A DNA stretch of 64,000 nt. Source: Arachidicoccus sp. BS20. GTDB lineage: Bacteria > Bacteroidota > Bacteroidia > Chitinophagales > Chitinophagaceae. The translations under genes were made by a program, and so were the position numbers. The stretch is from assembly GCF_001659705.1 (NCBI RefSeq), contig NZ_CP015971.1, positions 3,413,029-3,477,028 of the forward strand. The letters are read 5' to 3'. Positions 22,289-32,364 of the stretch are shown here, in pieces. The first letter of the stretch is position 1; every line of letters starts with the position of its first letter. Under the pieces are notes generated by a model. That model did no database searches. It had not been told where the DNA came from and saw nothing but the letters and a program-made list of their open reading frames with translations.

Positions 22289-23230
22289 TTAACTTACCAA
22301 CTTCACATACGCATCTACAAACTTATGAACGAAGTTTACTTTTTTGTACAACCAATTGTATGAGATAATTCCTACAACAGCGCAAGCGATTCCGGCAAGC
22401 ACATCAAGCAAATAATGATGGCTTGCATAAACAGCGGTAAACCAAATACCAAGCATTATAATGGCAAAAAATATTTTCGCATACCAGCGTTGTTTATTTT
22501 TGATAGCATGATAAAGCGTAACTGTTGGATAAGATGCGTGCAGCGAAGGCATGGCAGCAAACACGTTGGAACTTTGTGCATACAGCCCGTGAAAAATATT
22601 TAAGTGAAAATAAGCGTCAAATCTTCCCAAACCTGCTGTATTGCCCGGTGTGTGCGGGTTGAACGCAAATCCGTGCAGCTGAACGTACCATGGCGGCGCA
22701 GACGGACAAACATAATAAATTACAAAACCGATGAGATTTACCCACAAAAATGTTAGCGCAAAATTGATATAACCTGCACGCTTTTTTGTGTAGAATAAAT
22801 ATATGCCAAACAGAATGGGAACAGGCATCCAACACAAATAGAAACAACCTGCGAGAATATCAAGAAATATTTTTTGGTGTGCGTAAAAATATTCATTCAG
22901 CGAAACTTTTTTCCCGCTGTCAAAGATGCCAAACCAAGATTTATCCAGGTTGTAAATATCTTTAATATGAACCTGACTGAATTTATAGTTTGGGAATGCT
23001 TTCATAAAATCGAAGATTACCCAAAACACGATAAACACCGAAAAAGCAAGAATAAATTTTCTCGTTCCCGAAGTAAGATAATACAAAACATTGAACAGAA
23101 TAATTAAAATTGACTGTTCCGTTTTATAGCCAATCAATACACAACAAAGCAAAAGATACAATGCTGAAATGCCGAAAGTCAATAAGAAATTTTTTATGGT
23201 ATATACGGTCGTCTTATTCAGGTTCGGCAC
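22289..23230 (-). CDS. PAP2/Aur1-like phosphotransferase, probable inositol-phosphoryl ceramide synthase
   Basis: 313 residues, about six membrane helices. The Aur1-type motifs are present: CPSAPPW (about residue 175), AAMPSLHASYP (about 223) and YASHHYLLDVLAG (about 265), with the catalytic histidines and aspartate. Fungal Aur1 and the Bacteroides enzyme move phosphoinositol from phosphatidylinositol to ceramide. The gene closes the operon that also contains a phosphatidylinositol-phosphate synthase candidate and a PgpA-type phosphatase, which supports this role over generic lipid phosphatase. It abuts the ABC-F gene tail to tail. Confidence 0.82.
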   Translation of the reverse strand: MPNLNKTTVYTIKNFLLTFGISALYLLLCCVLIGYKTEQSILIILFNVLYYLTSGTRKFILAFSVFIVFWVIFDFMKAFPNYKFSQVHIKDIYNLDKSWFGIFDSGKKVSLNEYFYAHQKIFLDILAGCFYLCWMPVPILFGIYLFYTKKRAGYINFALTFLWVNLIGFVIYYVCPSAPPWYVQLHGFAFNPHTPGNTAGLGRFDAYFHLNIFHGLYAQSSNVFAAMPSLHASYPTVTLYHAIKNKQRWYAKIFFAIIMLGIWFTAVYASHHYLLDVLAGIACAVVGIISYNWLYKKVNFVHKFVDAYVKLVS

Positions 23231-23260
23231 GTGCTATCAAGATTTTTTATAAAGAAATAA

Positions 23261-23911
23261 TTATGCTGTTTTTTGTGTTTGTGTGGTGTTTTTTTTCTTT
23301 GGAAAACCTGAATCGAAAATGATGTCCCACAAAGAAGAGCTTACACCAAACCCTTTTTTCTCATCCTGATAATGATGCAGCATATGGTGTTGCTTTATCT
23401 TTTTCATCAATGAAGATTTAAAATTGTAGTGATGCATGGCATAATGCAGCATATCGTAAATCAAATATCCTGTAATAAAACCCGGAAAGAAACTGTATAA
23501 TGCAGGTTTTGAAAAGAATAATGAGAAAATCCAGTAAAATAAAATTGCCAACGGAATGCTTACCGACGGCGGCATTACAAGTCTTAATCTATCTTTTGGA
23601 TAATCGTGGTGTACACCATGAAAAATGAAATGCAGGCGTAATCCCCATGAAGATTTTGGTACAAAATGGAAAATAAATCTGTGTAATACATATTCCGTCA
23701 AACTCCAGACAATTAAACCGATTATATAGTATTCCAAAAAGAATAAACCGCTGCAATGCTCTGCTGCAAAGGCTTTCCACGAGAAGAAAGCAATTGCGGG
23801 AATAAATATATATAACGGAACAGTAAAATGTACTTTGGACAAACTTTCCAAAAAACTGCTCTTGAACATTCTTGTTGATTCTTCCGAATTGGAAACAAAA
23901 TTTTTTGCCAT
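23261..23911 (-). CDS. Fatty-acid hydroxylase / sterol-desaturase family, probable ceramide hydroxylase
   Basis: 216 residues, four membrane helices. The diiron histidine clusters are visible: HRFIFH, HGVHHDYPKDR, HYAMHHYNF and HHMLHH. The spacing and the short form match the Scs7/FA2H branch, which adds a 2-hydroxyl to the N-acyl chain of ceramides in eukaryotes. Its place in the sphingolipid operon, 30 nt before the PAP2 gene, supports a ceramide substrate. It lacks a cytochrome b5 domain, so an electron donor must come from elsewhere. Confidence 0.82.
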   Translation of the reverse strand: MAKNFVSNSEESTRMFKSSFLESLSKVHFTVPLYIFIPAIAFFSWKAFAAEHCSGLFFLEYYIIGLIVWSLTEYVLHRFIFHFVPKSSWGLRLHFIFHGVHHDYPKDRLRLVMPPSVSIPLAILFYWIFSLFFSKPALYSFFPGFITGYLIYDMLHYAMHHYNFKSSLMKKIKQHHMLHHYQDEKKGFGVSSSLWDIIFDSGFPKKKNTTQTQKTA

Positions 23912-23946
23912 GACCTTTTTCTCCTCCTAAATTTTTAGCCGTAAAT

Positions 23947-24543
23947 TTAACTTTCTTCTTTCTTCACATTGGTAAGACGTTCGACTTCTTCGTTACCGGT
24001 TTTAATGTCGTTGCCTTTAATTTCAACATATACTACATGCGGATTCCAAAACGAGCCGCCCTTGATGTAAATAAAAATGCTGTTCATTACTGCAACTTCG
24101 TTATTGATTTTTCCATATACCTTCCATTCGTTCTCTTTGTTTTTCAAAAGATACATGTGGTATTTTTTGTAAGAAACAAACCAAAACTCATATCGGGTAT
24201 CGCTTATTTTTTTTATGTTTAATCCGTAGGCAAATTTACGCTGAATAAAGTTTAATTCCTTTTTTTCTCCTTTAGGCGAATCGCCGTAACGCAGCCAATA
24301 AGTCGTCAAGGGTTTATCGGTATCTAATTGTCCGTTTACGATATTCAAATCACACGCGATTGTATTTGTATTGGGTGTTCTTTGCAAATAGAACATTCTG
24401 TTTGGCTCACTTGGCGGAATGGGATAAGCGATTCCTTCACGCACAATCGTTTTTTGTGCAAAGCCTTGTAAGGTGAGGCTTCCAAGCAATAGTAACAAAA
24501 ATATATTTTTAAACCAATTCTTCGGGTTAAACTCCTTATTCAT
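23947..24543 (-). CDS. DUF4833 protein of the inositol-lipid operon
   Basis: 198 residues with a signal peptide (hydrophobic stretch about residues 13-29, ending GFAQ). The mature part starts with NRMFYLQRTPNTNTIACDLN and has TYWLRYGDS, FAYGLNI and SFWNPHVVYVE, which I recall as DUF4833. It overlaps the start of the CDP-alcohol phosphatidyltransferase gene by 8 nt at its 5' end, so translation is probably coupled. A periplasmic role in inositol-lipid handling is inference from position only. Confidence 0.78.
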   Translation of the reverse strand: MNKEFNPKNWFKNIFLLLLLGSLTLQGFAQKTIVREGIAYPIPPSEPNRMFYLQRTPNTNTIACDLNIVNGQLDTDKPLTTYWLRYGDSPKGEKKELNFIQRKFAYGLNIKKISDTRYEFWFVSYKKYHMYLLKNKENEWKVYGKINNEVAVMNSIFIYIKGGSFWNPHVVYVEIKGNDIKTGNEEVERLTNVKKEES

Positions 24544-30997: not shown

Positions 30998-31030
30998 TCC
31001 GAAAAAATTTGTTTGTGGTTTAAAAGATGA

Positions 31031-31078
31031 AATTGCCTAAGTTCTCGTTATTTTAATGACAAACGAACTTAGGCAATT
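31031..31078 (-). terminator. Strong hairpin between spt and the ceramide synthase candidate
   Basis: A perfect 14-bp stem (AATTGCCTAAGTTC, 31031-31044, with GAACTTAGGCAATT, 31065-31078) lies in the 149-nt gap. On the minus strand it is followed by TCATCTTTT, a weak T-run, so it could be a terminator, a partial terminator or an mRNA-stabilising stem. Confidence 0.6.
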
Positions 31079-31146
31079 CCGGTTATTGTTACTATGCAAA
31101 TGTATTTCAAAATAGCTTTTGAACAAACTTTACTCGTATTATTCGG

Positions 31147-32364
31147 TTAAGCGAATTTTTGAGACAGCACATGGTTTGATTCAATGCCGATGCGCTTTGC
31201 TACACCTGAAATTTTCTCTACTGCTTCTTCAATTTGTGCAAAAGTATGTGTTGCCATTAACGAAAAGCGAATCAGTGAATCGTCGGGCGGAACTGCAGGC
31301 GCTACAACGGGATTGACGAAGATGCCTTCTTCAAGCAAATATTTGGTAAGCAGAAAAGTCTTATCCGGATTTCTTACATAAATAGGAAGAATAGGGCTTT
31401 CGGTTGGTCCGATGTCGAAACCTGCATCTATCAGTAATTTTTTAGCATGGTTTGTATTGTCCCACAATCTTTCTATATGTTCGGGTTCCGATTCCAAAAT
31501 GTCCAAAGCTGCAATTACGCTTGCAACGGAAGCCGGTGTCATGCTCGCGCTGAAAAGCACAGAACGTGCACGGTGCTTCAGATAATCGATTGTTTCGGCA
31601 TCGGCAGCTACAAAACCGCCGAGCGATGCAAATGATTTGCTGAATGTTCCCATTATCATGTCCACATCGTCCGTCAAGCCGAAATGCGAAGCTGTGCCCG
31701 CGCCTTTGAAACCAATGACGCCGAGACTGTGCGCATCATCTACATAAATATTGGCGCCGTATTTTTTAGAGAGTTCTACAATTTCGGGTAATTTTACAAT
31801 ATCGCCTTCCATGGAAAATATTCCGTCAACTGCAATTAGCTTAACAATATTATCGGGAAGCTGCCGGAGCTTGGCTTCCAAATCTTCCATATCGTTGTGG
31901 CGATATTTCAATGTTTTTGCAAAAGACAAGCGAGAACCGTCGATAATGGAAGCATGGTCATATTCATCCAGAATCAAGTAATCATTGCGACCGACAATGC
32001 TGGAAAGTACTCCGAGGTTTACCTGAAAACCTGTGCTGAAAAGCAGCGCATCTTCTTTGCCCACGAACTTTGCCAGCCGCTTTTCCAATTCAATATGAAT
32101 GTCAAGTGTGCCGTTCAAAAAGCGTGAACCTGCACAGCCTGTACCATATTTTGCTACGGCAAGCATAGACGCTTCTTTGATTTTGGGATGGCTGGTCAGT
32201 CCTAAATAGGAATTGGAACCAAACATCAATACTTTTTTGCCTTTAATATACACCTCTGTGTCTTGCCCCGATTCGATAGCACGGAAATAAGGGTAAAGCC
32301 CTTTTTCTTTAATTGCTGTCGCATCTTTAAACTCGGCAATTTTTGTTTTTAAATTCTTCTGCAT
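31147..32364 (-). CDS. spt: Serine palmitoyltransferase (alpha-oxoamine synthase)
   Basis: 405 residues, PLP-dependent. It condenses serine with palmitoyl-CoA or palmitoyl-ACP to 3-ketosphinganine, the first step of sphingolipid synthesis. Visible: [32 protein letters not shown] (about residue 219) and the PLP lysine in [13 protein letters not shown] (about residue 253). The relatives 2-amino-3-ketobutyrate CoA ligase and AONS share these, but the downstream ceramide genes support SPT. It needs no membrane anchor, as in Sphingomonas. Confidence 0.9.

Follow-up and report, generated by a model that had tools for sequence, protein, structure and literature searches.

A block of ten minus-strand genes in the genome of Arachidicoccus sp. 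BS20 very probably provides almost all enzymes needed to make a 2-hydroxylated inositol-phosphoryl (dihydro)ceramide, a lipid similar to the inositol sphingolipids of fungi. The block lies within a stretch of 64,000 nucleotides (contig NZ_CP015971.1, positions 3,413,029 to 3,477,028), here called the window; the source genome is one contig of 3,492,500 bases. In the order of transcription the genes encode serine palmitoyltransferase (SPT), a GNAT-fold protein, a reductase, a PgpA-family phosphatase, a GtrA-family protein, a DUF5686 protein, phosphatidylinositol-phosphate synthase (PIPS), a DUF4833 protein, a hydroxylase resembling yeast Scs7 and an Aur1-like PAP2 transferase. The original prediction had placed ten genes of these families at 22289-32364, and all were present as listed when open reading frames (ORFs), Pfam and NCBIfam were consulted (Table 1). 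The pathway is read from gene content, homology, motifs, conserved linkage and gene fusions; the activities and the position of hydroxylation are predictions from these. No description of the block as such was found in the searchable literature.

In the proposed pathway SPT would condense serine with an acyl thioester, after which the GNAT protein would N-acylate the product and the reductase would reduce the 3-keto group. The order of these two steps is unsettled, being disputed between work on Caulobacter and on Bacteroides (PMC11087976, PMC9278070). The Scs7-like enzyme would then hydroxylate the N-acyl chain at C2. PIPS would make phosphatidylinositol phosphate from cytidine diphosphate (CDP)-diacylglycerol and inositol phosphate, the PgpA-type phosphatase would convert this to phosphatidylinositol, and the PAP2 protein would transfer phosphoinositol to ceramide. 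Inositol phosphate would be supplied by a distant, INO1-like myo-inositol phosphate synthase (MIPS), since the MIPS of the cluster itself appears to have been deleted in this lineage. The DUF4833 protein, predicted to be periplasmic, and the DUF5686 protein, a predicted outer-membrane barrel, may move or insert the inositol lipids after or beside their synthesis.

Ceramide and inositol genes of the block

SPT scored 732 bits against NCBIfam model NF047600, above the equivalog cut-off of 640, and carries TFSKS at residue 240, which we take to be the motif of the pyridoxal phosphate-binding lysine. The reductase contains GANGFVG and YGKSK, and the PAP2 protein PSLHA and HHYLLD; these, like the histidine boxes of the hydroxylase, are presumably the catalytic motifs. 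Relatives of the GNAT protein were sought in the PDB and none was found.

The best PDB match of the hydroxylase is yeast Scs7 (4zr1; phmmer 1.1e-32). Hydroxylation of the N-acyl chain at C2 is preferred on this ground, and it is unlikely that the enzyme acts on C4 of the sphingoid base or on another lipid. The Pfam FA_hydroxylase family does span several specificities, and Scs7 was the sole hydroxylase among the PDB matches, a C4-hydroxylase sequence not being in the comparison. Against such a target, the alignment with Scs7 extends over 184 residues, the Scs7 histidine boxes are in place and the two proteins have a GFGV-S-WD ending in common. Furthermore, Pedobacter saltans, of a genus reported to have sphingolipids, is reported to contain 8.9% iso-C15:0 2-OH (PMC3236043), which would match the product expected of a ceramide 2-hydroxylase if the gene is present in that strain. 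The hydroxylase is a candidate for the gene behind the 2-hydroxy fatty acids reported in Pedobacter.

The hydroxylase is tied to the ceramide half of the block, since 61 of the 66 loci that have SPT also have the hydroxylase, as against 3 of the 13 that lack SPT (counts not corrected for kinship; the loci are described below). The three exceptions are Taibaiella loci in which the block is split (L078, L079 and L112).

An extra membrane protein of ~330 aa is encoded between the hydroxylase and PAP2 in four loci (L067, L143, L150 and L173). It has histidine-rich motifs (HECAHN and HLKHH in L067), by eye resembles a fatty-acid desaturase and perhaps makes a further modification to the ceramide.

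PIPS scored 382 bits against NCBIfam model NF052561, for which the equivalog cut-off is 350, and the motif DX2DGX2AR...GX3DX3D is intact at residue 78. The closest PIPS in a collection of named genomes, at 82% identity, is that of an Arachidicoccus metagenome-assembled genome (MAG), which agrees with the pointer to Chitinophagaceae in the original prediction. For PAP2 the best solved relative is yeast AUR1 (9vj3; phmmer 1.7e-14), and the match to NF052609, the model for the phosphoinositol dihydroceramide synthase BT_1522, is full length (model positions 8-304 of 305). These sequence relatives of fungal Aur1 and Scs7, with the catalytic motifs in place, are encoded side by side in a bacterial block, unlike the fungal enzymes; their activities here are predicted.

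In Bacteroides thetaiotaomicron (BT), the inositol lipid cluster is defined by BT_1522, BT_1523 and BT_1525, usually with a BT_1526-type MIPS, although exceptions have been published (Heaver et al., PMC9246714). The window has a PIPS with its motif, a PgpA-family phosphatase of predicted substrate near PIPS and the Aur1-like PAP2. The roles of BT_1522, BT_1523 and BT_1525 were shown by knock-outs in Bacteroides (PMC9246714), where the PIPS, PgpA-type phosphatase and PAP2 steps have genetic support (PMC9246714, PMC8791184). Deletion of the GtrA gene reduced inositol phosphoceramide in one Bacteroides study (PMC8791184), while in the other the lipid pattern on thin-layer chromatography was that of the parent (PMC9246714). 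Like BT_1522-BT_1526, the window encodes the PAP2/Aur1-like synthase, PIPS, GtrA and PgpA-type phosphatase, with a CarboxypepD_reg-domain protein (a BT_1527 homologue) nearby (PMC9246714). Compared with that cluster the window adds SPT, the GNAT protein, reductase, hydroxylase and DUF4833, and lacks the cluster MIPS, having a MIPS of another type elsewhere.

Table 1. Features of the block and its gaps, with positions in the window and supporting evidence.
Feature	Position	Strand	Evidence
SPT, serine palmitoyltransferase, 405 aa	31147..32364	-	NCBIfam SerpalmtaseCFB (NF047600)
Hairpin in SPT-GNAT gap, terminator or leader structure	31029..31080	-	Folding of 31015-31085
GNAT-fold protein, 376 aa, candidate bacterial ceramide synthase	29867..30997	-	Weak PF00583; linkage
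NAD(P)-dependent SDR-type reductase, candidate 3-ketosphinganine or oxidised-ceramide reductase	28890..29870	-	PF01370
43-bp palindrome overlapping TAnnTTTG promoter-like element, before PgpA	28799..28841		21-nt arms, 90% complementary
PgpA-family phosphatase, candidate phosphatidylinositol-phosphate phosphatase (BT_1525 role)	28296..28751	-	PF04608 1.1e-40
GtrA-family membrane protein (BT_1524 role)	27924..28295	-	PF04138 4.1e-18
DUF5686, 857 aa: CarboxypepD_reg-like N-terminal domain and predicted outer-membrane beta barrel	25339..27912	-	PF18939 9.6e-57
PIPS, phosphatidylinositol-phosphate synthase, BT_1523 type	24536..25264	-	NCBIfam PIPSynBT1523 (NF052561)
DUF4833, predicted periplasmic, signal-peptide-like N-terminus	23947..24543	-	PF16117 2.8e-41
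Scs7/FA2H-like hydroxylase, candidate ceramide N-acyl 2-hydroxylase	23261..23911	-	phmmer to yeast Scs7
Aur1-like PAP2 transferase, candidate inositol-phosphoryl ceramide synthase	22289..23230	-	phmmer to yeast AUR1; PAP2_3 9.1e-22

Conservation of the block and supply of inositol phosphate

The gene set is far beyond chance, since many relatives have these genes in an identical order. Comparison of gene order across the family Chitinophagaceae, which the original prediction had proposed as a check, used 147 genomes, of which 24 (the window's genome included) had PIPS above the cut-off. All 24 neighbourhoods were examined (the window and L062-L084; L and G numbers are our handles for loci and genomes). 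SPT lies in the same block as PIPS in 14 of the 24; in two of the remaining loci the contig is too short for this to be judged. No PIPS over the cut-off was found in the other two genomes that the draw contained from the window's genus. An even draw of the phylum gave PIPS over the cut-off in 14 of 395 genomes. A scan of named genomes yielded a further 80 loci, which are best hits mostly from Pedobacter and Chitinophagaceae, with others from Mucilaginibacter, Arcticibacter and Chryseosolibacter, and not a random sample of the phylum.

Pooling gave 107 loci besides the window (23 from the family, four from the phylum search and 80 named), of which 92 were distinct and 79 of these extended at least 8.5 kb upstream and at least 3 kb downstream of PIPS. 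A gene was counted in these 79 if it was on the same strand and started no more than 12 kb from PIPS; L156, which has only a 34% relative of SPT, was not counted for that gene. PAP2 was present in all 79 loci, GtrA in 75, PgpA in 74, DUF4833 in 72, DUF5686 in 71, SPT in 66, the hydroxylase in 64, cluster MIPS in 62, the reductase in 57 and GNAT in 53. SPT, PIPS and PAP2 occurred jointly in 66 loci. In 49 loci PIPS was accompanied by the whole ceramide set of SPT, GNAT and reductase, and 41 loci had all eleven genes. Gene order is kept in Pedobacter, Chitinophagaceae, Mucilaginibacter and others.

The union of both halves had been predicted to be unusual. The joint count of 66 in 79 does not bear this out and rarity of the block was rejected: it is real, conserved and well interpretable, and ordinary in Pedobacter and Chitinophagaceae. 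In a 2024 paper the three ceramide genes are said, citing an earlier study, not to be close together in Bacteroidota (PMC11334938). This does not hold for the groups examined here, and the published view of scattered ceramide genes is to be corrected for them. The same three enzyme classes are known as spt, bCerS and cerR in Caulobacter and Bacteroides (BT_0870, BT_0972); BT_0972 is not clustered with SPT (PMC9278070), while the ceramide genes of the window adjoin each other and the inositol genes.

The linkage also bears on whether the block could be two independent operons, for ceramide and for phosphatidylinositol, without a joint product, the ceramide receiving some other head group and PAP2 being a lipid phosphatase. 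Such an arrangement is very improbable. It would agree with the 138-bp gap between the reductase and PgpA, which has its own promoter-like element, with the separation of the halves in Bacteroides and with four loci where only the inositol half is near PIPS (L080, L081, L083 and L179). It is opposed by the presence of SPT, PIPS and PAP2 together within 12 kb in the 66 loci and by the matches of PAP2 to Aur1 and to the whole BT_1522 model. In addition, two Taibaiella (T. helva and T. lutea) have the block split elsewhere, between DUF5686 and PIPS, and have kept the parts on the same contig, with SPT, GNAT, MIPS, PgpA, GtrA and DUF5686 in one group some 14 and 18 kb away from PIPS.

In most relatives a BT_1526-type MIPS (PF07994 and PF01658) precedes PgpA. 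The window's cluster is without one, and PF07994 gave no match in the genome. The 138-bp gap at this position can be aligned with the sequence preceding MIPS in the Arachidicoccus MAG, and the alignment takes in the palindrome of Table 1 and the TAACTTTG element. In the window's lineage the cluster MIPS appears to have been deleted and its promoter region retained. A decayed MIPS within the gap was rejected as nothing rose above noise (best E 0.97).

The original prediction had noted that the window contains no MIPS, which is consistent with what was found; a copy elsewhere in the genome had been overlooked. A MIPS of 403 residues is encoded at about 690,760-691,970 of the contig, 2.7 Mb from the block, a distance that shrinks to about 0.74 Mb on a circular contig. 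It matched only PF01658 in Pfam and, in NCBIfam, only TIGR03450 (mycothiol_INO1; 301 bits, positions 1-349 of 355), below the cut-off of 638, such that 'INO1-type' is a label of resemblance. With a MIPS of another type in the genome, absence of an inositol-phosphate supply was rejected.

Twenty-two genomes chosen by cluster type were compared. Fifteen, among them the window's, have MIPS-less clusters (L094 in G389 is another such cluster, outside the set), five combine PIPS with cluster-type MIPS, and two belong to the window's genus and have no PIPS. Among the 15, PF07994 was found in none and PF01658 without PF07994 in 11, in open frames of 400 to 440 residues; these are taken to be the second MIPS type of the window's genome, for whose copy the NCBIfam scan was made. 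The six genomes with cluster-type MIPS gave no second PF01658 match, and the two types occurred together in none of the 22. This looks like the replacement of one MIPS type by another. The PIPS clusters without detectable MIPS of either type are L073, L077, L141 and L175, three of them from Segetibacter.

Several observations weigh against the proposed pathway. Neither MIPS type was found in four of the 15 genomes with MIPS-less clusters (G077, G098, G537 and G540, two of them without a completeness figure), and the inositol supply or the head group is therefore unexplained there. PAP2 scored 336.5 bits on NF052609, short of the cut-off of 480, and is therefore named Aur1-like and not an equivalog. 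The hydroxylase is absent from 15 of the 79 loci, hence hydroxylation would be optional. Lipid data for Arachidicoccus were not found among the first 10 of 2,232 literature matches. Finally, the ceramide-synthase role of the GNAT protein is a candidate one drawn from linkage. The original prediction of a phosphoinositol sphingolipid pathway is upheld by the equivalog models for SPT and PIPS, the PDB matches, the motifs and the linkage, and is less secure in its assignment of the GNAT protein.

DUF4833 and DUF5686

Sphingolipids are delivered to the outer membrane of bacteria, but the authors of a 2024 study write that they had yet to identify any flippase or transporter that serves them (PMC11087976). 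The block offers candidate genes for such transport: DUF4833, a predicted periplasmic domain that in many loci forms one protein with PIPS, and DUF5686, a predicted barrel of the outer membrane. These are the parts most worth study. No mention of the words DUF4833 or DUF5686 was found in the literature searched. Both families had been named in the original prediction, and it was their companionship and the fusion to PIPS that had escaped notice.

DUF4833 is C-terminal to PIPS in one protein in 11 of the 24 family loci, a separate neighbouring ORF in eight (the window included) and absent from five. Of the 80 named loci, 56 have DUF4833 joined to the C-terminal end of PIPS, 20 have it as a separate gene and four lack it. 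In 46 of the 56 fusions the PIPS and DUF4833 parts are separated by a hydrophobic segment, which fits a membrane helix placing DUF4833 in the periplasm. The signal peptide of the window protein was recognised by visual inspection and escaped a simple hydropathy scan. Residues invariant in 55 DUF4833 sequences include Q54, R55, N58, N60, W83, Q101, G162, G163 and P168. The AlphaFold2 model (predicted local distance difference test, pLDDT, 87.6) is mostly beta with one listed helix. A fold match in the PDB was sought at E <=0.001 and none was found, which does not prove a new fold, and assignment of a function from the fold was dropped.

In the draw of 395 genomes, by their handles the same genomes for both families, nine of the 14 whose PIPS passed the cut-off had DUF4833, as did 19 of the remaining 381. 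Of its 30 places there, 24 neighbourhoods were examined. Seven had PIPS, one was an alternative cluster with a nucleoside triphosphate (NTP) transferase (L086), six had a relative of another CDP-alcohol transferase and in ten no such enzyme was seen. Ten proteins from seven of these ten loci (L087, L088, L096, L099, L100, L103 and L106) were scanned with Pfam; for L101, L104 and L105 the judgement came from BLAST labels alone. An exclusive partnership of DUF4833 with CDP-alcohol transferases was therefore rejected, strong though the link with head-group transferases is. L086 resembles the alternative inositol cluster of Prevotella and Bacteroides vulgatus (NTP transferase, CDP-alcohol transferase and HAD), with DUF4833 and DUF5686 alongside; unlike that cluster, the window has the PIPS and PgpA chemistry.

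The six loci with another CDP-alcohol transferase (L090, at 9812-13687, and L089, L092, L093, L098 and L102) come from genomes of two other families. They have a PhyH-type dioxygenase and usually GtrA next to the transferase and DUF4833, with an SDR protein in L090, whose proteins were those scanned with Pfam among the six. This set is possibly another head-group pathway.

DUF5686 has a single copy in the window's genome. In the 79 loci it occurs with DUF4833 in 68, alone in three and not at all, DUF4833 being absent too, in four; in the other four DUF4833 is alone, three of these being Taibaiella with the split block. The AlphaFold2 model (pLDDT 78, predicted template-modelling score, pTM, 0.66) starts with a signal-peptide-like helix, has a beta-rich domain in its N-terminal part and a middle region, and ends in strands read as a barrel. 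In Foldseek the top matches of this model were Sam50, BamA and TamA. There were 118 PDB chains at E <=0.001, and the best 50 of these were all Omp85-type machines (E 1e-8 to 1e-5, target template-modelling score up to 0.61). Profile comparison did not agree with this. In hhalign, DUF5686 against 28 Omp85 barrels of the family gave a probability of 0.2%, from a shallow DUF5686 alignment (effective number of sequences 2.1). PF01103 was absent from the best 25 of 31 families obtained for 34 DUF5686 members with E as high as 10, and from the table for the window protein. Membership of the Omp85 family was therefore rejected in favour of a resemblance of fold only: the predicted barrel is similar to those of BamA, TamA and Sam50, and differs in having no profile relationship with them and a CarboxypepD_reg-like N-terminal domain. 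A barrel of this type need not move lipids.

A carboxypeptidase-regulatory-domain protein, BT_1527, is near both inositol clusters of Bacteroidetes (PMC9246714) and may be a DUF5686 protein. In the literature searched it was found named nowhere except in that paper.

A tentative route through the envelope can be drawn from the fusion, the predicted locations and the co-occurrence. DUF4833, tethered or fused to PIPS, would take the inositol lipid at the inner membrane and pass it to the DUF5686 barrel for insertion. If true, this would be, as far as we know, the first named bacterial sphingolipid transport system. We place at close to an even chance the alternative that the two proteins work for the capsule or a different polymer of the envelope, or that DUF4833 regulates PIPS. 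The capsule of B. thetaiotaomicron is affected by loss of inositol and of inositol lipids (PMC9246714), the ten neighbourhoods in which no CDP-alcohol transferase was seen and the three loci with DUF5686 alone would be accommodated, and no fold match indicates a function. The 56 fusions to PIPS, the presence of DUF4833 in the inositol cluster of L086 and its position beside another CDP-alcohol transferase in the six loci count against this alternative. That DUF4833 follows head-group transferases speaks for work on lipids; it does not separate transport from regulation.

An Omp85 match (PF01103) is present elsewhere in the window, on the plus strand at 48025-49113 within an open frame of 923 aa that is probably BamA.

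Gaps, promoter-like elements and regulators

The genes of the block are closely spaced. There are overlaps of 4 bp between GNAT and the reductase and of 8 bp between PIPS and DUF4833, no space between PgpA and GtrA, and 11 bp between GtrA and DUF5686. Two gaps are wide, 149 bp between SPT and GNAT (30998-31146) and the 138 bp between the reductase and PgpA (28752-28889), and therefore the block is likely to be transcribed as two or three units and not one.

A TetR-type regulator of about 200 aa stands beside the block in L062 and other loci, either shortly before SPT or MIPS or after PAP2. TetR-related ORFs no more than 1.5 kb from the block numbered 34 with duplicates kept, and direct relatives were present in 33 fetched loci (30 after removal of duplicates). 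No such gene was seen beside the window's block and the genome has only a 32% identical relative elsewhere; therefore no regulatory claim is made.

The palindrome before PgpA stands where relatives carry MIPS, is matched before the cluster MIPS of the Arachidicoccus MAG (L108) and is possibly the operator of some regulator. A common operator was rejected, the pattern occurring upstream of MIPS or PgpA in that one fetched locus only. Matches to a promoter consensus numbered nine against 6.4 expected, which is not above chance. Rfam gave no match over 20000-35000. The hairpin between SPT and GNAT is very stable: the folded stretch has an energy of -23.3 kcal/mol (z -5.83), none of 200 shuffles was as stable, and a TAnnTTTG promoter-like site lies upstream of it at 31097-31127.

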